From positions 248,001 through 312,000 of the forward strand of contig NZ_JAKGCT010000005.1 of the NCBI RefSeq assembly GCF_022230885.1: a stretch of 64,000 bases of DNA, given 5' to 3'. A program made the position numbers and the translations under genes. The DNA comes from Paenalcaligenes niemegkensis. Lineage in GTDB: Bacteria > Pseudomonadota > Gammaproteobacteria > Burkholderiales > Burkholderiaceae_B. Positions 3,218 through 57,806 of the stretch are shown here, piece after piece; the first letter of the stretch is position 1, and every line of letters starts with the position of its first letter. The notes under the pieces are model-generated. The model was not told where the DNA came from, did not search any database, and saw only the letters and a program-made list of their open reading frames with translations.

Positions 3218-4221
3218 CAGGCTGCTCCTTCCTGTCCACCAGCGCCAATACGAGGATCGATCAGGCGATAAATAATTTCTGTGATCAGATTAAACAGGAC
3301 CACCATGGTGGAGGTGACCAGGAAGATGCCCAGCAGCAATTGGTAGTCGCGCTGTAACAGGGCGTCGAACATTAAGCGCCCGATGCCGGGCCAGGCAAAG
3401 ACCGTTTCGGTTAAAACGGCGCCGCCTGCCATCTGGCCTAACTGAATGCCTGCAAAGGTCACCACCGGCAACAGGGCGTTTCTTAGCACATGTGTGCGGA
3501 TGACGCGTCCCTCGGGCACTCCTTTGGCGCGGGCAGTTTTAACGAAGTCCATGCCAATGACTTCAAGCATCGAGGCGCGGGTTAGACGTACGTAAAAGGC
3601 CATGAAGAAGCAGCCTAGCGTTAGCGTGGGCAGAGCCAGGTGCCGGGCGATATCGTGCACCCGGGCAAGCCCCGTCAAGCGTGAGCCTACCGACTCCATC
3701 CCAAAGGCAGGTAACCAGCCAAGCACCACGGAAAACAAGAGAATTCCCATTAGCGATAGCCAGAACAGAGGCGTGGCGTAAAGAATCAGCGCTCCACTGG
3801 TGACGACGCTGTCTATCCAGCGGCGACGGCCAGAGAAGCGTGAGCGGGCGGCTATTACACCAAGTGAGACGCCGGCGATTATCGAAAATATAAAAGCCGA
3901 GGACATCAACAAAAAGGTGGCAGGCAAACGCTCAAGAATGAGCGTTAAGACAGGAACATGATTTCGATACGAATAGCCGAGATCCAGCTGTACCACACCT
4001 TTCAGATATAGCCATAGCTGGCTTAGGAGAGGCTTATCCAGGCCAAAAGCAATGCGTAATTGTTCAACATAGGCCGGATCGCTGACACCAGCCTGACCGG
4101 CAAGCACTGCAGCCGGGTCGCCTGGAGCGAGCCGAATCAGGAAAAAATTGATGATGACAACGCCCAGGATAACAATAAGCGCCTTGCCCAGACGCGAGGC
4201 CAAAAATATCAAAAATTTCAT
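3217..4221 (-). CDS. dipeptide-type ABC transporter permease (DppB-like)
   Basis: This is a 334-residue inner-membrane permease with the N-terminal helix (LGKALIVILGVVIINFFL), the DppB hallmark RLAPGDPAAVLAG at about residues 30-45, and six predicted membrane segments. The EAA-type cytoplasmic loop is seen as DFVKTARAKGVPEGRVIRTHVLRNALLP. It lies 68 bases downstream of the binding-protein gene and its stop overlaps the start of the second permease. The order binding protein-B-C-DF is the classical one for peptide/opine/nickel-type importers. The substrate is unknown. Confidence 0.92.
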   Translation of the reverse strand: MKFLIFLASRLGKALIVILGVVIINFFLIRLAPGDPAAVLAGQAGVSDPAYVEQLRIAFGLDKPLLSQLWLYLKGVVQLDLGYSYRNHVPVLTLILERLPATFLLMSSAFIFSIIAGVSLGVIAARSRFSGRRRWIDSVVTSGALILYATPLFWLSLMGILLFSVVLGWLPAFGMESVGSRLTGLARVHDIARHLALPTLTLGCFFMAFYVRLTRASMLEVIGMDFVKTARAKGVPEGRVIRTHVLRNALLPVVTFAGIQLGQMAGGAVLTETVFAWPGIGRLMFDALLQRDYQLLLGIFLVTSTMVVLFNLITEIIYRLIDPRIGAGGQEGAA

Positions 4222-9442: not shown

Positions 9443-9480
9443 GACGGGCCAGGTTGTAAAACAACCTGGCCCGTCTTTTA
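9443..9480 (+). terminator. Rho-independent terminator of gabD
   Basis: There is a perfect 15-base inverted repeat GACGGGCCAGGTTGT (9443-9457) / ACAACCTGGCCCGTC (9461-9475) with a 3-base loop, followed by TTTTA. No T-run exists in the other orientation, so it serves the gabD transcript. Confidence 0.9.
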
Positions 9481-44238: not shown

Positions 44239-45738
44239 TCAGGCCTGGCTAGGGGCCGCGCTTTCTTCTTCCAGGCTGGTTGCTGGATTACGGTCTTCAG
44301 TTGCGCCGTTAAAGTAAACGTTCAATAAAACAGCGGCAATAGAAGTCAGCAAAATACCTGACTCAATAAGTGGGCCCAGGGCCTCAGGCATCCATTGCTT
44401 GTAATGGGGAGCGACCAGGGGAATCATGCCTACACCAATGGAAATGGCGACAATCATGGCATTGTGGCGGTTGGTAGTGTAGTTAACCTGCCCCAGAATA
44501 CGAATCCCTGTAGCGGTAACCATACCGAACATCACGATTCCGGCGCCGCCCAGGACAACGGTAGGCAGCGACTCAACCAACGCCGCCATTTTGGGTAACA
44601 GGCCAAGAATAACCAGAATAATACCGGCGGCTACGCAAACAAAGCGGCTGCGGATGCCGGTCACGGCCACCAGCCCGACGTTCTGCGAGAAGCTTGAGTA
44701 GGGAAAGGTGTTGAAAACACCACCTAAAATAGTACCTACACCGTCCACACGCAGGCCAGCAGCCAGCTCACGCTGGGTAATGCGTCGGCCTGTCATGTCA
44801 CTTAAGGCGAGGAACATACCCGTAGACTCAATAAGCACCACTACCATCACCAGACTCATGGTGGCAATATGCAGGAAGCTGAATTTGGGCATGCCAAAGT
44901 GAAACGGCAACACCACGTCAACCCAGGGCGCCGCAACAACCTTCTCGAAAGTCATCATGCCCAGCGTCGTAGCCACCAGGGCACCAATAATAATGCCCAG
45001 CAATACCGCAACGTTGGCCAGGAAACCCTTGCAGAATTTTGCGATGATCAAAATCGAGCCCAGCACAATGGTAGCGATACCCAGGCCTGGCAGCGATGCG
45101 TAGCGTGGATTCGGCAGGCTTGGGGCAAGATTCAGTCCTGACGGCGGGGGTGGCAATTCAGAGCCAGGTGCTGCGGCTTCCCGCACGGCTTGTAGCCAGG
45201 CGAGGTGATTGGGGTCGACCAGCGTAGGTGCAGTGGGACCTACCGGGTTACCGAAGATCCAGTTAATACCCACACGCATGAGCGTAATACCGATCATGGC
45301 AATGATCGTTCCGGTGACCACGGGCGGGAAAAAACGCAGCATACGGCTGACCATGGGGGCAATAATGACCGTAACGATACCTGCCCCGATAATCGTGCCG
45401 AACAATAGTTGCGCACCTTCGTGCCCCGGCGTGGAGTTTGCCATTGAAACCATCGGGCCAACGGCGGCAAAAGTAACGCCCATCATGACTGGCAAGCGTA
45501 TTCCCAGCCACTGGGTGGCACCGAACGATTGAATGATAGTCACAATGCCGCAGATAAAAAGATCCGCAGCGATCAGCATTGAGACTTCGGCAGAACTTAG
45601 ATTTAATGCACGTCCGACGATAAGAGGAACCGCCACCGCGCCAGCGTACATGACAAGTACGTGCTGCAGCCCCAGAAGGCCGAGCTTTCCGACGGGTAAA
45701 AGTTCATCGACGGGCGCGACGTGTTGATTCGTCCCCAT
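44239..45738 (-). CDS. nucleobase:cation symporter-2 family permease (xanthine/urate type)
   Basis: This 499-residue NCS2 transporter has about 14 membrane segments. Signature elements are GLQHVLVMYAGAVAVPLIVG, the Glu in VVVLIESTGMFLALSDMTGR and the VFNTFPYSSFSQNVGLVAVT motif that defines the substrate-binding loop. The ESTG and NTFPY pattern fits the xanthine/urate branch rather than uracil. An unusual insert rich in Pro (about residues 180-225, including ELPPPPSGLNLAPSLPNPRY) occurs between two helices. It has GGAGACG before the start. It stands alone, with a long leader region. Confidence 0.9.
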   Translation of the reverse strand: MGTNQHVAPVDELLPVGKLGLLGLQHVLVMYAGAVAVPLIVGRALNLSSAEVSMLIAADLFICGIVTIIQSFGATQWLGIRLPVMMGVTFAAVGPMVSMANSTPGHEGAQLLFGTIIGAGIVTVIIAPMVSRMLRFFPPVVTGTIIAMIGITLMRVGINWIFGNPVGPTAPTLVDPNHLAWLQAVREAAAPGSELPPPPSGLNLAPSLPNPRYASLPGLGIATIVLGSILIIAKFCKGFLANVAVLLGIIIGALVATTLGMMTFEKVVAAPWVDVVLPFHFGMPKFSFLHIATMSLVMVVVLIESTGMFLALSDMTGRRITQRELAAGLRVDGVGTILGGVFNTFPYSSFSQNVGLVAVTGIRSRFVCVAAGIILVILGLLPKMAALVESLPTVVLGGAGIVMFGMVTATGIRILGQVNYTTNRHNAMIVAISIGVGMIPLVAPHYKQWMPEALGPLIESGILLTSIAAVLLNVYFNGATEDRNPATSLEEESAAPSQA

Positions 45739-45865
45739 GAGTAGCGTCTCCGTTTTTAGTAAAATTTATTAACTTTTGAGTGTGAGCTTAATGTAACGGA
45801 TACGCTGCGTCTGGGTCATATGATAAAGCCGATAAATATATCGTGTAATTTCATATGTTTAGGGG

Positions 45866-46024
45866 TTAACCCGCCTTAAAGAGGCGCTTTTGTCCCCCTC
45901 TGAAGCTGCGCTGGGGAAAACCCTGATACAGACATCCCAGACGACAAATCGTCGGATAACGGTGCGCACGGAATAAACGTTGGGAAAACATGCTGCAGTG
46001 GGGGTAAAAAAATGACAGAAGCAT
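45866..46024 (-). CDS. possible small protein, 52 residues, unknown
   Basis: A 52-codon frame starts at 46024 behind a near-ideal AAGGAGAATTCT ribosome-binding site. It reads MLLSFFYPHCSMFSQRLFRA and continues with HRYPTICRLGCLYQGFP, ending in a very basic tail (RSFRGGQKRLFKAG). It has three Cys and two His in a short span, which could bind metal. No family was recognised. It could instead be a translated leader of the nucleobase permease gene 127 bases downstream. The T7 and G5 runs within it make the frame uncertain in this error-prone assembly. Confidence 0.4.
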   Translation of the reverse strand: MLLSFFYPHCSMFSQRLFRAHRYPTICRLGCLYQGFPQRSFRGGQKRLFKAG

Positions 46025-46041
46025 AGAATTCTCCTTATAAT

Positions 46042-46056
46042 TGGTAATACCACTTT
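46042..46056. promoter_or_regulatory. GlcC/LldR-type operator (autoregulatory site)
   Basis: TGGTAATACCACTTT contains the TGGT-N3-ACCA palindrome known for PdhR/LldR/GlcC-type GntR regulators. It is 22 bases upstream of the GntR gene at 46079. The same 15 bases occur, inverted, at 50947-50961 upstream of glcD. Confidence 0.72.
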
Positions 46057-46078
46057 GGCCTAACTGAATGATCAACCC

Positions 46079-46834
46079 ATGAAACGCACTCGTCTATCGG
46101 ATGAAATTGCCGAGAAAATCAAGAATCTGGTACTGGAAGGCGCGTGGGTACGCGGTCAGCGGTTGCCCGCTGAACGTGAGTTAGCCGATAGTTTTGGTGT
46201 TTCGCGTCCTTCATTGCGCGAGGCCATACGGTCTTTGGTGGCTACCGGGCTGCTGCACACACACCATGGTGGCGGCACCTATGTGGCTGAAACGGTGGGC
46301 GCCAGCTTCAGAGATCCGCTGCAACAAGTGTTGTTTAATAATCCCGATGCCCAGCGAGACCTGCTGGAGTTTCGTTATATGCTTGAAGGCACCTGTTCGT
46401 ACTACGCGGCGCTACGGGCCACGGCTGCCGACCGTACGCGGTTGACTCAGGCCTTTGAAACCCTGGCCTCGTACCATGACGACCCGGTAGGCATAGAACA
46501 AAGCCAAGAGCAGTCTGCCGATGCGCATTTTCATCTGGTCATTGCCGAGGCTAGCCATAACGCGATTTTGCTGCATACCATGCGTAATACTTACGAGGTA
46601 TTAGGAAGTGGCGTGCAGGTTAACTTTGCGGGCATGTACCCCGATGGTCATGGGGTACGGGGCGATCTGATGAAACAGCACCAGGCCTTATACCTGGCAA
46701 TTATGGAAGGTCGGGCCGATGATGCTTCCGATGCGGCCCAGTCGCATATCCGCTTTGTGCAAGAGGTACTCCTCGAGATGAAAGCCGTACAAGAGCGCGA
46801 AGCGCGTTCACTACGCCGTGGCCTGATGCTCTAA
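46079..46834 (+). CDS. GntR-family regulator of the GlcC/LldR/PdhR type
   Basis: This is a 251-residue FCD-type GntR regulator. The winged helix has LSDEIAEKIKNLVLEGAWVR, LPAERELADSFGVSRPSLRE and LHTHHGGGTYVAE. The ligand domain has LLEFRYMLEGTCSYYAALRA and DAHFHLVIAEASHNAILLHT, with the metal-binding Asp/His positions typical of the LldR/GlcC branch. It converges on glcF. An identical operator upstream of itself and upstream of glcDEF makes it the likely glycolate- or lactate-responsive regulator of those genes. Confidence 0.9.
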   Translation: MKRTRLSDEIAEKIKNLVLEGAWVRGQRLPAERELADSFGVSRPSLREAIRSLVATGLLHTHHGGGTYVAETVGASFRDPLQQVLFNNPDAQRDLLEFRYMLEGTCSYYAALRATAADRTRLTQAFETLASYHDDPVGIEQSQEQSADAHFHLVIAEASHNAILLHTMRNTYEVLGSGVQVNFAGMYPDGHGVRGDLMKQHQALYLAIMEGRADDASDAAQSHIRFVQEVLLEMKAVQEREARSLRRGLML

Positions 46835-46842
46835 AGCCTATA

Positions 46843-46888
46843 AAATAAGCCCTTAGCTGCCGATCGGACAGTTAAGGGCTTATTTTTA
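46843..46888. terminator. bidirectional Rho-independent terminator
   Basis: A perfect 13-base stem AAATAAGCCCTTA (46843-46855) / TAAGGGCTTATTT (46873-46885) with T-runs in both directions, between the convergent GntR gene and glcF. Confidence 0.9.
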
Positions 46889-46921
46889 CTGCAGTCGCGC
46901 GTCGCCGCCCTGCCAGGCAGC

Positions 46922-48196
46922 TTAGGCTTCTAACTTTTGAAGTGATGCACCTGTTTCGCTTTCACTGAAGATATCATCCACGACTTCAATCCAATGCTTG
47001 ATCGGAATAGGCGCCTTGGCGGCTAGGTGGCCGTAGCAGCCTACGTTGGCGGTCACAATCATATCTGGCGAGCTAACTTGCAGGGCCTCTATTTTATTGG
47101 TCCGCAACTGCTCTGAGAGTTCGGGCTGCAGCACTGAGTAGGTACCCGCCGAACCGCAGCAAAGATGGCCATCACGTACGGGCACCGGTGTATGGCCGAA
47201 ACGCGTCAACAAGGCAGAAATTGAGGCTTTATTGCGAAGAGCATGCTGGAAGCTGCATGGCTCTTGTACTGCAATTTTTAGCGGCGAACTGGTTTGTGGC
47301 AGCGTGCGGGCATCCACAGCCAAAAGCTCATTCTGCAAAATCAGGCTGATATCCAGGCTTAAGCCTGCGATTTTCTGTGCTTTTTCTGCATAGTCGGGAT
47401 CATCGGCCAACAGGTCGGCATAGTGTTCCAGCTGAACACCACAACCGCTGGCGGTGCTGACAATAGCTTCAGCCTGATCAGATTGTATGAAGGGCCACCA
47501 GGCATCAATATTACGACGAGCGTCGGTCTTTGCACCTTCCAGATCGTTTAAATGGTGCCTGACTGCGCCACAGCAACCGGCGCGGGGAACACGCTTAAGC
47601 GTAATACCTAAGGCATCGAGTACCCGAATGGCAGCAGAGTTGGTTTGTGGCGTCAGCGAAGGTTGTACACAGCCATCCAATACCAGCATGATGCGTGCGT
47701 GCGTGCGTGTGGGCTCGGCACGACCCTTGGCCGGGCGATCAGGCAGCAGTTCTTTGAGTGACTGGGGCAGCAAGGGCTTTAATGTGTAGCCAACTGCGGC
47801 GGCACGGCTAAACACGGCGGGCCGCGCTACCATCTCCTTGAGCCCCCAGCGTTTGACACGCTCAGTTAGCGGGCGCTCGACCTTGCGTTCCATGACGCGA
47901 CGGCCTACATCGACCAGTTCGCTGTACTTGACGCCAGACGGACAGGTGGTTTCACAGGCTCTGCAGGTCAGGCACCGGTCTAAATGCTGCTGGGTGATTT
48001 CACTGACCGGCTTGCCTTCGAACATCTCTTTCATCAGATAGATGCGGCCTCGTGGCCCATCAAGCTCGTCGCCTAATATCTGGTAAGTAGGGCAGGTGGC
48101 ATTACAAAATCCACAGTGTACGCAGTTCGCAATGACTTCTTTGGCTTTTTCGCCCTCGGCGGTGCCGATGAACTCTTCCGATAGCACGGTTTGCAT
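46922..48196 (-). CDS. glcF: glycolate oxidase iron-sulfur subunit
   Basis: GlcF passes electrons from the flavin subunits of glycolate dehydrogenase to the respiratory chain at the membrane. This 424-residue protein has two 4Fe-4S motifs, CVHCGFCNATCPTYQ near residue 25 and CLTCRACETTCPSG near 75. Two CCG domains follow, with GCCGAVRHHLNDLEGAK and LCCGSAGTYSVLQPELSEQL. Its start overlaps the glcE stop. It is the last gene of glcDEF. Confidence 0.94.
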   Translation of the reverse strand: MQTVLSEEFIGTAEGEKAKEVIANCVHCGFCNATCPTYQILGDELDGPRGRIYLMKEMFEGKPVSEITQQHLDRCLTCRACETTCPSGVKYSELVDVGRRVMERKVERPLTERVKRWGLKEMVARPAVFSRAAAVGYTLKPLLPQSLKELLPDRPAKGRAEPTRTHARIMLVLDGCVQPSLTPQTNSAAIRVLDALGITLKRVPRAGCCGAVRHHLNDLEGAKTDARRNIDAWWPFIQSDQAEAIVSTASGCGVQLEHYADLLADDPDYAEKAQKIAGLSLDISLILQNELLAVDARTLPQTSSPLKIAVQEPCSFQHALRNKASISALLTRFGHTPVPVRDGHLCCGSAGTYSVLQPELSEQLRTNKIEALQVSSPDMIVTANVGCYGHLAAKAPIPIKHWIEVVDDIFSESETGASLQKLEA

Positions 48197-49278
48197 TACA
48201 AGGCTCCTGGGTAAATACGTCCAGCATTCAGAATGCCGGCTGGATCGAAAGCCGATTTAAGACGCTGCTGGATACGCAGCATGGGTGCGGCCAAGGGATG
48301 AAAAGGAGAGTCGACCGGCCCATTGCCGCGGAAAACATTGGCGGTCCCGCCTACACTGCTGGCGATCTCGCGTATTTGCGCTTCAGAGGCGTCGCTGTAG
48401 ACCCAGCGCAAGGCTCCGCCCCATTCCACCATGACAGATTGCAGCGGTTTCAGTACACCACAGGTGCTGGGCACTGATAAGCGCCATAAGTGCCCAGACT
48501 TTTCGGCCTTGAACCAATCGTGCTTCTGTTCCCGGATGCTGGACCAGAATGCATCCGCAACATCAGCTTCCAGAGTGTCTCCACCTATTTTTTGTATGCC
48601 TGAATCAATGGCTTCCTGAGCTCCTGACAGACGGATATAGGCAACCTCGTCTACCCAGGTGGTGGCAGAAATAGCCAGTGGCAAGCCCGCGGATTTGTTG
48701 AACAGATCAAGTGCTTTTTCTTGAGTGAGAGCCAGGGCCAGAGTGGCAGAGGCTTCGGGAATAGGCAGAACCTTGATGGAAAGCTCGTCGATCACACCCA
48801 GACTGCCAAAGCTGCCGGCAATCAGGCGGGACACGTCGTAGCCGGCCACGTTTTTCATGACCTGTCCGCCAAACGTCAGGTGCTGTCCCTGACCATCAAC
48901 AATTTTGACGCCCAGAACAAAGTCTTTTAGTGCACCAGCAGTGGCCCGTCGGGGCCCGGCCAGGCCAGAGGCTATACAGCCGGCGATGGTTGCGCCTTCG
49001 CCAAAATGAGGTGGCTCAAAGGCGAGGAACTGTTTGCGCGACGCCAGCAGCGTTTCGATTTCGCTTAAGGGCGTACCACCTTTGACGGTGATCACCAGCT
49101 CAGATGGTTCGTAATCAACAATGCCCTGATTGGCAGAGACATTCAAGATCTCGCCTTTGCAGCGCGGACCATAAAATTGCTTGCTGCCCGAACCGAGGAT
49201 GTGCAGAGGAGTTTTATCATTGTGCGCCTGACGAATTCTGTCTTGCCAGTCGCTAACGATTAAATTGGTAGTGCTCAT
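48196..49278 (-). CDS. glcE: glycolate oxidase FAD-binding subunit
   Basis: This 360-residue FAD-binding protein of the glycolate oxidase complex has an FAD_binding_4 domain: ELVITVKGGTPLSEIETLLA, FGEGATIAGCIASGLAGPRR and GGQVMKNVAGYDVSRLIAGS. It lacks the long C-terminal cap of GlcD, as expected. It starts 30 bases after glcD and overlaps glcF. Confidence 0.94.
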   Translation of the reverse strand: MSTTNLIVSDWQDRIRQAHNDKTPLHILGSGSKQFYGPRCKGEILNVSANQGIVDYEPSELVITVKGGTPLSEIETLLASRKQFLAFEPPHFGEGATIAGCIASGLAGPRRATAGALKDFVLGVKIVDGQGQHLTFGGQVMKNVAGYDVSRLIAGSFGSLGVIDELSIKVLPIPEASATLALALTQEKALDLFNKSAGLPLAISATTWVDEVAYIRLSGAQEAIDSGIQKIGGDTLEADVADAFWSSIREQKHDWFKAEKSGHLWRLSVPSTCGVLKPLQSVMVEWGGALRWVYSDASEAQIREIASSVGGTANVFRGNGPVDSPFHPLAAPMLRIQQRLKSAFDPAGILNAGRIYPGAL

Positions 49279-49308
49279 AATACAAATTCCGCTAGAAAAT
49301 GGCGTCGA

Positions 49309-50814
49309 TTAGAAACGTGGAAGCTCGGGGAAAGGCACTTCACCATGATGTACATGCATGAGACCAAACTCGGCACAGCGGTTAAGCGTAGGGATGTGCT
49401 TTCCCGGATTCAATAAACTGTCCGGATCAAATGCTTTTTTGATGTCGAAGAACTTGGTGCGTTCGCCATCGCTAAACTGCACACACATTTGATCGATCTT
49501 TTCAACGCCCACGCCATGTTCGCCAGTGATCGTTCCACCCAGGGCTACAGACAGCTCTAGAATGTCGCCGCCAAATGCCATGGCGCGGTCTTTTTCATCA
49601 GGGATGCTGCCATCGAAAAGGATCAGAGGATGCAGGTTTCCGTCGCCGGCGTGGAAGACGTTCAGGCAACGCAAGCCATGCTTGACCTCGAAGTCTTTGA
49701 TGGTGGTCAACATTTCAGCGAGGCGCTTGCGCGGTATTGTGCCATCCATGCAGATGTAGTCGGGCGAGACGCGGCCCGCTGCGGGAAAGGCCGCCTTACG
49801 ACCCGCCCAGAACAGTGCACGCTCTTCTTCGGACTGCGACACGCGGATCTCTGTTGCGCCGCTTTCAACCAGAACGGCTTTCATTTTCTTGATTTCTGCC
49901 GCAACCTCTTCGGGAGTTCCGTCGGATTCGCATAGCAGAATAGCTTTGGCGTCTAGCGGGTAACCGGCATTGACAAAGGCTTCGACGGCTACGGTAGCGG
50001 GTTGATCCATCATTTCCAGGCCAGCAGGGATAATACCTGCGGCAATGACAGCGGCGACGGCGTCGCAGGCTTTGGCCACATCATCAAAGCTTGCCAGAAT
50101 ACATTGTGCTAGCTGCGGAGTTGGCGTCAGCTTGACGGTAACTTCGGTGACGACGGCCAGCATGCCTTCTGAGCCGGTGAGCAGTGACAACATGTCAAAG
50201 CCCGGTGTATCAAGGGCATGGCTGCCGATCTGGATGATGTCGCCATCGATGGTAACTGCACGCAAATGCAGGAGGTTATGAATAGTCAGCCCGTATTTCA
50301 GGCAGTGAACGCCACCCGCATTTTCGGCAACGTTGCCGCCGATGCTACAGGCAATTTGGGATGAAGGGTCAGGCGCATAGTACAGGCCGTGCGGATGCGC
50401 TACCTGCGAAATTGTAATGTTACGCACGCCTGGCTGCACAGTGGCCGTACGCGCGTAGGGATCGACCTTAAGCACCTGACTGAGCTTGGCTAGCGAAAGC
50501 AACACACCTTGAGGGTGCGGCATGGCACCACCGGATAAACCGGTACCCGCACCGCGAGCCACAATAGGCACATTACGCTCGGCACAGATTTTGATGGCGC
50601 GTACAACCTCGGCTTCGTTTGCCGGCATTACCACCAATAATGGTTTTTGACGTAATAATGTAAAACCATCGCACTCGTAAGGCTTCAACTGTTCATTGGT
50701 ATGCAGTACGGCTTCGGGCGAGGTGGCTTGCTGAAGGGCAGCAATCAACGCAGGACGATCAGTCGTACCGAAATCGTATTCAGCGTAGAGCTCGTGTTGA
50801 TGAGTTTCAGACAT
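49309..50814 (-). CDS. glcD: glycolate oxidase catalytic subunit
   Basis: GlcD oxidises glycolate to glyoxylate with FAD. This 501-residue protein has the PP-loop VARGAGTGLSGGAMPHPQGV, the SSQIACSIGGNVAENAGGVH motif and the C-terminal GGTITGEHGVGVEKIDQM (FAD-oxidase_C). D-lactate is an alternative substrate for such enzymes, but the glcDEF order supports glycolate. A GlcC-type operator is 137 bases upstream. Confidence 0.94.
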   Translation of the reverse strand: MSETHQHELYAEYDFGTTDRPALIAALQQATSPEAVLHTNEQLKPYECDGFTLLRQKPLLVVMPANEAEVVRAIKICAERNVPIVARGAGTGLSGGAMPHPQGVLLSLAKLSQVLKVDPYARTATVQPGVRNITISQVAHPHGLYYAPDPSSQIACSIGGNVAENAGGVHCLKYGLTIHNLLHLRAVTIDGDIIQIGSHALDTPGFDMLSLLTGSEGMLAVVTEVTVKLTPTPQLAQCILASFDDVAKACDAVAAVIAAGIIPAGLEMMDQPATVAVEAFVNAGYPLDAKAILLCESDGTPEEVAAEIKKMKAVLVESGATEIRVSQSEEERALFWAGRKAAFPAAGRVSPDYICMDGTIPRKRLAEMLTTIKDFEVKHGLRCLNVFHAGDGNLHPLILFDGSIPDEKDRAMAFGGDILELSVALGGTITGEHGVGVEKIDQMCVQFSDGERTKFFDIKKAFDPDSLLNPGKHIPTLNRCAEFGLMHVHHGEVPFPELPRF

Positions 50815-50946
50815 GTCTTAGCCTTTGCGGAGTCAAGAAGCGCGATATACGGCCTAAATAAGCCGCGTGTATTCACGCTTATAAACAGTATTTATGTAAA
50901 AACACCCGATAAATTAATGGCTTAGGGGTATTTTAAATCATTCGGT

Positions 50947-50961
50947 AAAGTGGTATTACCA
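50947..50961. promoter_or_regulatory. GlcC/LldR-type operator upstream of glcDEF
   Basis: AAAGTGGTATTACCA is the exact reverse complement of TGGTAATACCACTTT in front of the GntR gene 4.9 kb away. The palindromic core is TGGT-ATT-ACCA. It lies 133-147 bases upstream of the glcD start and 60 bases beyond the pgi stop, in the 207-base gap that must contain the glcDEF promoter. Confidence 0.72.
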
Positions 50962-51021
50962 TTAATATATCGCGAGTTGAGTTCTATGCCAAGTGGCATA
51001 AACACTTACATGCCTAAAGTA

Positions 51022-55105: not shown

Positions 55106-55574
55106 ATCCTACTCCGAAAGAAAAATAGATCTACAGCATGGTGTCCTCTGCAACCATATGGGTCGCAGAAATTTCACGCCAAGAATAGGACTATTTAAGG
55201 AGGGGTGGAGCGAAGAAATGCCTGGATTAACGATTGTTCACCGTTGGAGAAGCAGAGATGTATCTAAACGTATATGGTGCTCCTGCGCTGGAGGGGAAAT
55301 GAAATCGAATGAGTTTATTGGTAACCCTAAGAATCAGACGCAAGCCGTACTGAAGCCTGGCTTACACCGCCTGAACCGCCTTCAGAAGGGCATTCGCCCG
55401 GCATACCACGCTGCTATCGCCATACAGGCATAAATAAGTGATATCTCCGATAGAACAGGAGCAGGTTTGTACTAATTGCGTGTTCTGCTGTGGCTGCTAG
55501 TCTGTAGTGTGACCGTATGGTCACATCAGTGCTTAAGGATGGAGACTCTTTATTTTAATAAGCCGGGGGTAGGT
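55106..55574. other. intergenic region, 469 bases
   Basis: This is the divergent gap between aqpZ and the orphan binding protein. The only clear structure is the perfect palindrome at 55508-55525. A 113-codon frame crosses the left part (55092-55433) but begins inside the aqpZ start region and looks like no known family, so it is not called. Confidence 0.5.
55508..55525. promoter_or_regulatory. 18-base perfect palindrome upstream of orphan binding protein
   Basis: TGTGACC-GTAT-GGTCACA is a perfect inverted repeat with 7-base arms, 50 bases upstream of the binding-protein ATG. The half sites resemble a Crp site, but the TGTGA/TCACA spacing is 8 and not 6, so another dimeric regulator is more likely. 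Confidence 0.55.
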
Positions 55575-57149
55575 ATGAATATGCTGCGGAATAAAAAAAT
55601 ATTGTGGGGTGCGCTATTCGCATCCACAACACTGATGACGGCGGCTAGCGCGCAAACCGTTACGGCGGTCATGCATTCGGGGCTACGGATGATGGACCCC
55701 ATACAAAGCACCGCCTTTATCACCCGTGAACATGGCTACATGATTTACGACACATTGGTAGGCATCGATTCAAACTTCAAGGTTCAGCCTCAGATGGCCG
55801 ACTGGGAAGTGCTTGATGACGGCAAGGTGTACAGGTTTACCTTACGTGATGGCTTGAAATGGCACGACGGCACGCCAGTAACCTCCGAGGACTGCATCGC
55901 CTCGATCAAACGCTGGCTCGACAACGACAATACCGGCCCTGTGCTGGAAGGTTTTCTGGCCGACTACAAGGTCGTCGACGACAAGGTATTCGAGCTACAC
56001 CTCACCGAAGCCACAAGTCTGGTACTCGACAGCCTTGCAAAAATCAGTTCACGTCCTGCTTTCATGATGCCCAAGCGCATTGTCGAAGCGGCCGGCAAAG
56101 AAGCCGTCAGCGAAATGATTGGTTCTGGCCCTTTTAAATTTGTTCAAGCCGAATTCCGTCCTGGTGTACGGGTGGTATATGAGAAAAACATCGACTATAT
56201 CCCTCGTAGCGAACCCACAGACTGGACTTCAGGAGCCAAGCAGGTCAACGTAGATAAGGTCGAATGGGTAGGCATGCCCGACGCCATGACCAGTGCCAAT
56301 GCACTACTCAACGAAGAAGTCGATTTTATCGAGAAATTCCCATTCGATTTACTGCCACTGGTGGAAAACAGTGCCGATTTAACCACCCGCGTCATCGATC
56401 CACTGGGCAACTGGAGCTACTTCCGCTTCAATCACATGTATCCACCCTTTGACAATAAGCTCATCAGACAGGCTGCCATGTATGCCGTAGGCCAGGAAGA
56501 TGTATTGAAAGCGCTGGTGGGAAATCCCGAATACTACTCCACCTGCGCCTCGCCCTTTGGTTGCGGTACGCCAAACGCCACCGACTACGGCACCGACATG
56601 ATCGTTCCCGCCAACATTGAAAAAGCCAAAGAACTTCTGGCTGAAGCCAACTACGACGGAACACCCGTGGTACTGCTGCATCCCACAGACCATGTGACGG
56701 CGGCACCGCAACCCGTCGTGATCGCCTCAGCATTGCGAGCAGCCGGCTTCACGGTTGATATGCAATCGATGGACTGGCAATCAGTCGTATCCAGACGCTC
56801 CAACACCAGCCAGCCATCGCAGGGAGGATGGAGCATCTTTGCCACCTACGGCATCATTGCCGCCGCTGGTGACCCATTTGCCAACACCACGATTGCAGCC
56901 AACGGCAAAGAAGCCTGGTTCGGCTGGCCTGACGTACCAGAAATTGAAACCCTACGCCTTGAATACGCACGAGCTGTCGACGACGAAAGCAAACAAGCCA
57001 CCGCCGCAAAAATACAGGAACTGGTCATAGACGAAGGCGTTATCGTCCCGCTGGGACAATTCAGAACCCCCGCTGCGTACAGCAATAAACTTCAAAACAT
57101 CCCCGAAGCACCAATCACAGTGTTCTGGGGACTAGAAAAGAAAGGCTAA
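55575..57149 (+). CDS. periplasmic substrate-binding protein (SBP_bac_5), orphan
   Basis: This is a 524-residue dipeptide-type binding protein. The start at 55575 (MNMLRNKKILWGALFASTTL) follows GGGGGTAGG and yields a clean signal peptide cut after ASAQ; the frame is open back to 55476 but lacks such signals. Landmarks are WHDGTPVTSEDCIASIKRWL and MIGSGPFKFVQAEFRPGVRV. It has no permease genes of its own. Its C-terminal half is closely similar to the binding protein of the leftward operon at 62.8-64 kb (both have TPVV-LHPTD, MDWQSVV, AWPDVPEIE-type segments), so it probably feeds that transporter. Confidence 0.92.
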   Translation: MNMLRNKKILWGALFASTTLMTAASAQTVTAVMHSGLRMMDPIQSTAFITREHGYMIYDTLVGIDSNFKVQPQMADWEVLDDGKVYRFTLRDGLKWHDGTPVTSEDCIASIKRWLDNDNTGPVLEGFLADYKVVDDKVFELHLTEATSLVLDSLAKISSRPAFMMPKRIVEAAGKEAVSEMIGSGPFKFVQAEFRPGVRVVYEKNIDYIPRSEPTDWTSGAKQVNVDKVEWVGMPDAMTSANALLNEEVDFIEKFPFDLLPLVENSADLTTRVIDPLGNWSYFRFNHMYPPFDNKLIRQAAMYAVGQEDVLKALVGNPEYYSTCASPFGCGTPNATDYGTDMIVPANIEKAKELLAEANYDGTPVVLLHPTDHVTAAPQPVVIASALRAAGFTVDMQSMDWQSVVSRRSNTSQPSQGGWSIFATYGIIAAAGDPFANTTIAANGKEAWFGWPDVPEIETLRLEYARAVDDESKQATAAKIQELVIDEGVIVPLGQFRTPAAYSNKLQNIPEAPITVFWGLEKKG

Positions 57150-57205: not shown

Positions 57206-57210
57206 CATGC

Positions 57211-57252
57211 AACCCCAACCCCAACCCCAACCCCAACCCCAACCCCAACCCC
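57211..57252. repeat. hexanucleotide tandem repeat (AACCCC)7
   Basis: There are seven perfect copies of AACCCC. The minus strand is (GGGGTT)7, which has seven G4 tracts and can form G-quadruplexes. It begins 5 bases after the terminator and directly precedes the 114-base repeat array. Confidence 0.95.
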
Positions 57253-57255
57253 AGT

Positions 57256-57315: not shown

Positions 57316-57350
57316 GAAAAAGTGAGCGCTGTTCGAAGCGCGCAGCGCAA

Positions 57351-57806
57351 GTTCGCGAACGCCTGCTTTGTTTGCTGTTCAAGGGTAGTGCGCAGCACCG
57401 CTCAACGCTAAGCGAGCGCAGGAAAGGGCAAGAAGACGACACCCGTGAGACAGAGCGTCCGCGAGTTCGCGAACGCCTGCTTTCCTCACCGTTCAAGGGT
57501 AGTGCGCAGCACCGCTCAACGCTAAGCGAGGACAGGAAAGGGCAAGAAGACGACACCTGTGCGGCAGAGCGTCCGCAAGTTCGCGAACGCCTGCTTTGTT
57601 TGCTGTTCAAGGATAGTGCGCAGCACCGCTCAACGCTAAGCGAGCACAGGAAAGGGCAAGAAGACGACACCTGTGCGGCAGAGCGTCCGCAAGTTCGCGA
57701 ACGCCTGCTTTGTTTGTTGTTCAAGGGTAGTGCGCAGCACCGCTCAACGCTAAGCGAGCGCAGGAAAGGGCAAGAAGACGACACCCGTGAGACAGAGCCC
57801 CCACAA
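57351..57806 (+). repeat. four tandem copies of a 114-base repeat
   Basis: Units start at 57351, 57465, 57579 and 57693, each with GTTCGCGAACGCCTGCTTT (the first ten bases form a palindrome), then AGTGCGCAGCACCGCTCAAC, GCTAAGCGAG and GGAAAGGGCAAGAAGACGAC. Copies differ at about 5-15 positions and have no spacers. 114 is divisible by 3, so frames stay open on both strands through the array. It lies between the orphan binding protein and the stop of the amidohydrolase gene. Confidence 0.95.

Follow-up and report, generated by a model that had tools for sequence, protein, structure and literature searches.

Known regulators of glycolate oxidation and the present locus

Control of the glycolate oxidase genes glcDEF by GntR proteins has been described in Paracoccus, where GlcR is a repressor released by glycolate, and in Escherichia coli, where GlcC is an activator (PMC11323563). 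In E. coli, PdhR and LldR are both reported to bind at glcD (PMC7660256, PMC10272880), and GlcDEF is reported to oxidise D-lactate as well (PMC10272880). The published FadR-subfamily box of GlcC, LldR and PdhR is GT-N3-AC, and for FadR-type proteins, further half-sites at a distance of 7-12 nt from the centre have been reported (PMC4494728, section 17). GlcC, LldR and PdhR regulons across Proteobacteria are listed in PMC5343134, and glcDEF of Cupriavidus necator is described as potentially under a LysR protein (PMC8827060). Our literature search found no paper naming both Paenalcaligenes and glycolate. Here, we analyzed a stretch of 64,000 nucleotides from Paenalcaligenes niemegkensis (contig NZ_JAKGCT010000005.1; hereafter the window), in which a 15-base element, TGGTAATACCACTTT, stands upstream of a gntR gene and, as its exact reverse complement, upstream of glcD. 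Judging from sequence comparison, the GntR protein, which carries an FCD domain, probably represses glcDEF until a ligand releases it, and acts in the same way on its own gene in this genome.

The window resembles the locus of Paracoccus denitrificans GlcR in that a GntR-FCD gene adjoins glcDEF, and repression with release by glycolate is proposed here too (PMC11323563). Nevertheless, the regulator at the corresponding position in Paracoccus kondratievae, taken to be GlcR, is 36% identical to the window GntR, and the 9.4 kb P. kondratievae locus contains no TGGTN3ACCA. GlcC (E. coli; Alcaligenaceae g2/g16; Paraburkholderia) shares the glcDEF target and four FCD residues with the window protein, and beta-proteobacterial GlcC loci share the TGGTN3ACCA operators, but identity is limited to 29-38%, the gene order of GlcC loci is divergent, and the residues of the recognition helix and wing differ, for example VSRSALREGL and GKGS as compared to VSRPSLREAI and GGGT in the window GntR. 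LldR, from lldP-lldR-lldD clusters, has the same operator, the same four FCD residues and 36-43% identity, although its target genes differ and its clade closes without the window protein. Finally, E. coli PdhR has the recognition helix VSRPSLREAI, the box and the FCD fold (5tpm), but lacks three of the four FCD residues, and its gene precedes aceE.

Occurrence and conservation of the predicted operator

The original prediction had reported the element and its exact reverse-complement copy, and both were confirmed at the positions given in Table 1. A third copy was not found in the window with up to two mismatches (shuffle mean 0.05), and a scan of the whole genome (G000; 3,665,035 bases in 7 contigs, completeness 94.6%) returned only these two with up to one mismatch. 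The distance to the gntR start is 22 bp, as first described, while that to the glcD start is 132 bp, and not about 140 bp; the permease start is 303 bp away. The GT-N3-AC core is found at both promoters, and the assignment of this core to the PdhR/LldR/GlcC pattern matches the published FadR-subfamily box (PMC4494728). A repeated 15-mer is by itself unremarkable within 64 kb, as the window holds 17 repeated stretches of at least 15 bp, counted outside the repeat block at 57.1-58.2 kb. For two of these 17, TGGTAATACCACTTT and a local repeat at 9443/9461, both copies lie outside open reading frames (ORFs) of at least 100 amino acids. Between these two particular upstream regions such sharing is rare, with a 15-mer in common in 3 out of 20,000 simulated pairs, and TGGTN3ACCA in both regions in 0 out of 20,000.

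The operators begin 0 bp (gntR) and 2 bp (glcD) past good predicted -10 hexamers, and a geometry with the operator directly after the -10 suits a repressor, an argument that combines high scores with position. In the congener G004, a predicted TATACA-N17-TATGAT ends 3 bp ahead of the glcD-side operator.

Within the genus, 11 genomes were compared. An orthologue of the window gntR (about 70%) was found in G004, G005 and G010, and a search of 151 family genomes at E<=1e-60 returned the regulator lineage in four, which belong to a single genus. G000, G002, G005 and G010 each have glcD, and G007 has it in pieces. The region between pgi and glcD contains a single block, TGGTNNTACCACTTTACC, common to G000, G004, G005 and G010, in which the spacer of the glcD operator is AAT in G000 and G004, and CTT in G005 and G010. 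In G004, where glcD itself was not found, this operator is located near a contig end beside pgi, with glcE-glcF-gntR-permease on a different contig. Genome G002 is organized differently (locus L065, 4143-12000): a different LldR-like GntR gene heads the glcDEF operon, with two TGGTN3ACCA sites upstream, followed by lldP and lldR-lldD, which carry such sites as well. The one-mismatch copy of TGGTAATACCACTTT in G002 (C175) is inside an ORF.

The same type of box is present at lactate genes. In both G005 and G010, the exact 15-mer is found in the lldP/lldR-lldD divergent region, which has two TGGTAWTACCA boxes, and not at gntR or glcD. In G004, TGGTAATACCACTCT precedes the start of lldD by about 43 bp, and this genome (91% complete) gave no match to the LldR query except the glc-linked GntR. 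The P. niemegkensis genome has no LldR orthologue: its best match to the LldR query is the window GntR itself (39%), the only close LldR/PdhR-type protein found therein, and four further GntR proteins match at E<=1e-15 with 31-36% identity. It also has no orthologue of the G004-type lldD, the nearest protein being a 44% relative.

Beyond the genus, one or two TGGTN3ACCA sites were found between the genes at all eight divergent glcC-glcD loci of the family that were fetched, of 12 such pairs seen. Within 420 bp upstream of glcD, TGGTN3ACCA was absent from all 26 non-genus loci examined, these being the best non-genus matches among 154 genomes with glcD (genus included); the 12 divergent-GntR loci are not among them, and one of the 26 (L150) had about 80 bp of upstream DNA only. 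In E. coli, the boxes of pdhR and lldP are TGGTAAGACCA and TGGCCCTACCA, respectively; the 12 kb glc region has no exact TGGTN3ACCA, and degenerate boxes are reported there (PMC7660256, PMC10272880).

A wider regulon in P. niemegkensis was also considered and rejected, as none of the five further TGGTN3ACCANTT cores in the genome appears glycolate-linked from gene names assigned by eye. Four are within ORFs, one of these close to the beginning of an ABC-transporter ATPase-like ORF, and the fifth precedes a zinc alcohol dehydrogenase-like ORF by 144 bp (by eye). The 11-mer TGGTAWTACCA occurs at two other places, both inside ORFs (elongation-factor-G-like and conjugation-type, by eye). Separately, the gntR leader (46056) shares another 15-mer, CATTCAGTTAGGCCA, with an intra-ORF stretch at 3434, which is probably due to chance.

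The regulator and its genomic neighbourhood

The window regulator belongs to the FadR subfamily of the GntR superfamily, combining a winged helix-turn-helix (wHTH) domain with an FCD domain, in line with the original description: PF00392 and PF07729 score 77.1 and 68.7 bits, above their gathering scores of 27 and 24.3, and the expected FCD residues are kept. Residues D148, H152, H201 and H223, which we take to bind metal as in solved FCD proteins, are those of all LldR and GlcC rows aligned, while E. coli PdhR has V, Q, R and H, differing at three of the four positions. Arginines occupy positions 33, 43 and 47, where DNA contact is expected. The AlphaFold2 model has a mean predicted local distance difference test score of 85.5, and its FCD part matches the PdhR dimerisation domain (5tpm) at 1.7 A with a template modelling score of 0.90 by target; full-length structural matches had large root-mean-square deviations.

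As names for this protein, GlcC, LldR and PdhR were each rejected, as the NCBIfam equivalog cut-offs were all missed (PdhR 217/330 bits, LldR 208/311, GlcC 154/301). In the tree, the window GntR and its orthologues from G004, G005 and G010 form a clade of their own (100/100); GlcC closes at 100/100 and LldR, including the glc-linked protein of G002, at 100/99, both without the window protein. The initial label "GlcC/LldR-type" agrees with the type of box; its GlcC part is not borne out for the protein. Sister placement to PdhR, GlcC or LldR was in no case rejected by the approximately unbiased test (p-AU 0.17, 0.31 and 0.26, respectively), nor was grouping with GlcC in a wider joint clade (p-AU 0.15 and 0.31). 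A sister relationship with the glc-linked protein of G002 was rejected (p-AU 0.002), and so was the name GlcR, based on a joint clade with the P. kondratievae protein (p-AU 0.00024). The best tree places the window GntR, weakly supported at 85/76, with LutR-type proteins whose genes adjoin lactate genes. As to the locus itself, the gene adjoins glcF and a xanthine-type permease gene; it is part of no lldP-lldR-lldD cluster and is not beside pyruvate dehydrogenase genes.

The gene order in the window is permease, gntR, glcF, glcE, glcD and a pgi-like gene on the reverse strand (by eye); the features are listed in Table 1. For the glcD gene, the glcD models score best, yet under their cut-offs.

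Table 1. Features of the gntR-glcDEF locus, in positions of the window.
Feature	Position	Strand	Basis and remarks
xanthine-type NCS2 permease	44239..45738	-	TIGR03173, 496 bits, cut-off 414; divergent from gntR
predicted sigma-70 promoter of gntR, ATGACA-N18-TATAAT	46012..46041	+	promoter scan, 11/12; abuts operator copy 1
operator copy 1, TGGT-AAT-ACCA core + CTTT	46042..46056	+	15-mer scans; upstream of gntR
gntR, wHTH + FCD regulator of FadR subfamily, 251 amino acids	46079..46834	+	profile, alignment and model evidence
glcF	46922..48196	-	NF008434, 592 bits, cut-off 333
glcE	48196..49278	-	NF008439, 482 bits, cut-off 284
glcD, glycolate oxidase FAD (flavin adenine dinucleotide) subunit	49309..50814	-	748 bits, cut-off 897 (NF008408); 511 bits, cut-off 568 (TIGR00387)
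extra half-site ACC, after glcD operator	50944..50946	-	kept in 4/4 genomes; absent at gntR
operator copy 2	50947..50961	-	15-mer scans; upstream of glcD, kept in congeners
predicted sigma-70 promoter of glcD, TTGGCA-N17-TATATT	50964..50992	-	promoter scan, 10/12; ends 2 bp before operator

It had been suggested that the divergent permease might also respond to the 15-mer. We consider this unlikely and place the permease outside the regulon of the operator, because its start is far from the site, it belongs to the xanthine family, and congeners without the site retain the gntR-permease pair. Two GGG-N4-CCC boxes, GGGTTAACCC and GGGAAAACCC, are located between the two genes at 45863-45923, at a spacing of 51-52 bp, or roughly five helix turns, in 4/4 genomes (window, L036, L028 and L035), and are possibly the operator of another regulator. 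In the genome, the related pattern AGGGN{0,1}TTWWCCC has 31 matches and its reversed control 5, with palindromic places counted twice; several of the matches are paired, and of 30 loci checked, 12 fall within ORFs of at least 90 amino acids. At one locus (L221/L222; G000:C4:1869421-1869456), an AGGGTWWACCC pair overlaps a TTGACT-N18-TATAAT-like promoter (by eye) before a 78-amino-acid ORF. Among the titles listed by a literature search (15 of 418 matches), none was recognisably on the GGG-N4-CCC box. An echo of the window permease is seen in P. kondratievae (L233, 8671-9383), where a solute carrier family 23 permease is encoded near glcDEF and the FCD regulator. Purine breakdown and glycolate oxidation both yield glyoxylate.

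Elsewhere in the window, a (CAACCC)7 repeat at 57210-57253 and four copies of a 114-bp unit at 92% (57346-57798) follow a peptide-binding-protein-like ORF (55476-57149, by eye).

Mode of control and rival readings

In the mechanism that we propose, a GntR-FCD dimer would bind the TGGT-N3-ACCA operator covering the glcDEF transcription start, and would also bind the second copy, which would cover the start of gntR itself. A 2-hydroxy acid, most likely glycolate and possibly lactate, would fill the metal-dependent FCD pocket, upon which the ligand-loaded repressor would release the DNA, allowing the pathway to be transcribed. The glcD operator, conserved together with a third half-site at which binding may be cooperative, would represent the primary target, and P. 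niemegkensis would have acquired self-repression through the gntR copy only later.

Several observations weigh against this proposal. None of the three gntR orthologues aligned (G004, G005 and G010) has the gntR-side operator in its upstream region, so that the autoregulation originally predicted would be peculiar to this genome. Likewise, control of glycolate oxidation is favoured by the conserved glcD copy, but the presence of the exact 15-mer at lldP/lldR-lldD of G005 and G010 means that it is not a glycolate-specific signature. In these two genomes, gntR does not adjoin glcDEF, while the gntR-permease linkage is kept in 4/4. Promoter-like matches are not above chance in number, as two were found in the gntR region against 1.0 in shuffles (glcD region, 1 against 1.0), and the promoter scan gave no match at glcD or lld of G010. 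As to uniqueness, the bare core is common and not enriched: the P. niemegkensis genome has 59 places with TGGTN3ACCA and 102 with the reversed control, and TGGTN3ACCANTT gives 9 rows against 11. Information comes only from the complete 15-mer, from where its copies lie and from their conservation. The 11-base core is also found in genomes with no match to the LldR query (G006, 8; G008, 5; G009, 2). Lastly, as E. coli GlcC is an activator (PMC11323563), the sign of control could differ.

The finding of the 15-mer at lactate genes in two congeners also makes lactate a rival inducer. The regulator would then bind both sites, but respond to lactate, or to glycolate and lactate alike, with glcDEF serving 2-hydroxy acids generally. 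The oxidation of D-lactate by E. coli GlcDEF (PMC10272880) would fit such a role, as would the LutR-type sister group and the case of G004, in which lldD carries the box and this regulator is the only LldR-like protein found. The P. niemegkensis genome, on the other hand, has the operator at glcDEF and lacks an orthologue of that lldD, and we regard a lactate signal as possible but rather unlikely. An activator similar to GlcC, bound to DNA in both states and switching glcDEF on with glycolate, would follow the E. coli precedent (PMC11323563), and the grouping with GlcC was not rejected by the tree tests; yet, the operators are located at the predicted transcription start rather than upstream of the -35, and the protein falls outside the GlcC clade, which makes this alternative improbable.

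It could also be that the linked GntR acts chiefly on the xanthine permease or on its own gene, using other sites, and that another FadR-type regulator binds the TGGT sites. The kept linkage of gntR and permease, with the two GGG-N4-CCC boxes between them, speaks for this possibility, as do the four additional GntR proteins retrieved with the LldR query. Nevertheless, the low identity of those four proteins, the fact that xanthine is not a 2-hydroxy acid, and pocket residues of the LldR/GlcC type render it distinctly unlikely. As for sheer coincidence, the number of repeated stretches in the window and the lack of enrichment of the bare core would be compatible with it, but the simulated pairs and the conserved glcD copy leave it with hardly any credibility. 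Overall, ligand-released repression of glcDEF is the reading that we favour.

Among close relatives, distinct GntR lineages appear to recognise one and the same box ahead of glcDEF. We tentatively suggest, as an idea that may well not hold, that one operator type is combined with interchangeable regulators: in this family, no fewer than three distinct GntR lineages would act on TGGT-N3-ACCA before glycolate oxidase genes, namely GlcC in g2/g16, an LldR-like protein in G002 and the window lineage. The site would outlive its reader, and once LldR was lost in G004, the lactate and glycolate regulons may have been merged under one regulator. Relevant to this suggestion, the regulators of the window and of G002 form no clade. 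Altogether, the type of bacterial control concerned is well known, and the regulator with its operators would represent a fresh example of it, in the form of a small, self-contained regulon with two operators in one genome. It would suit as a simple test case of how control by glycolate and by lactate is exchanged among related GntR proteins with a common box.

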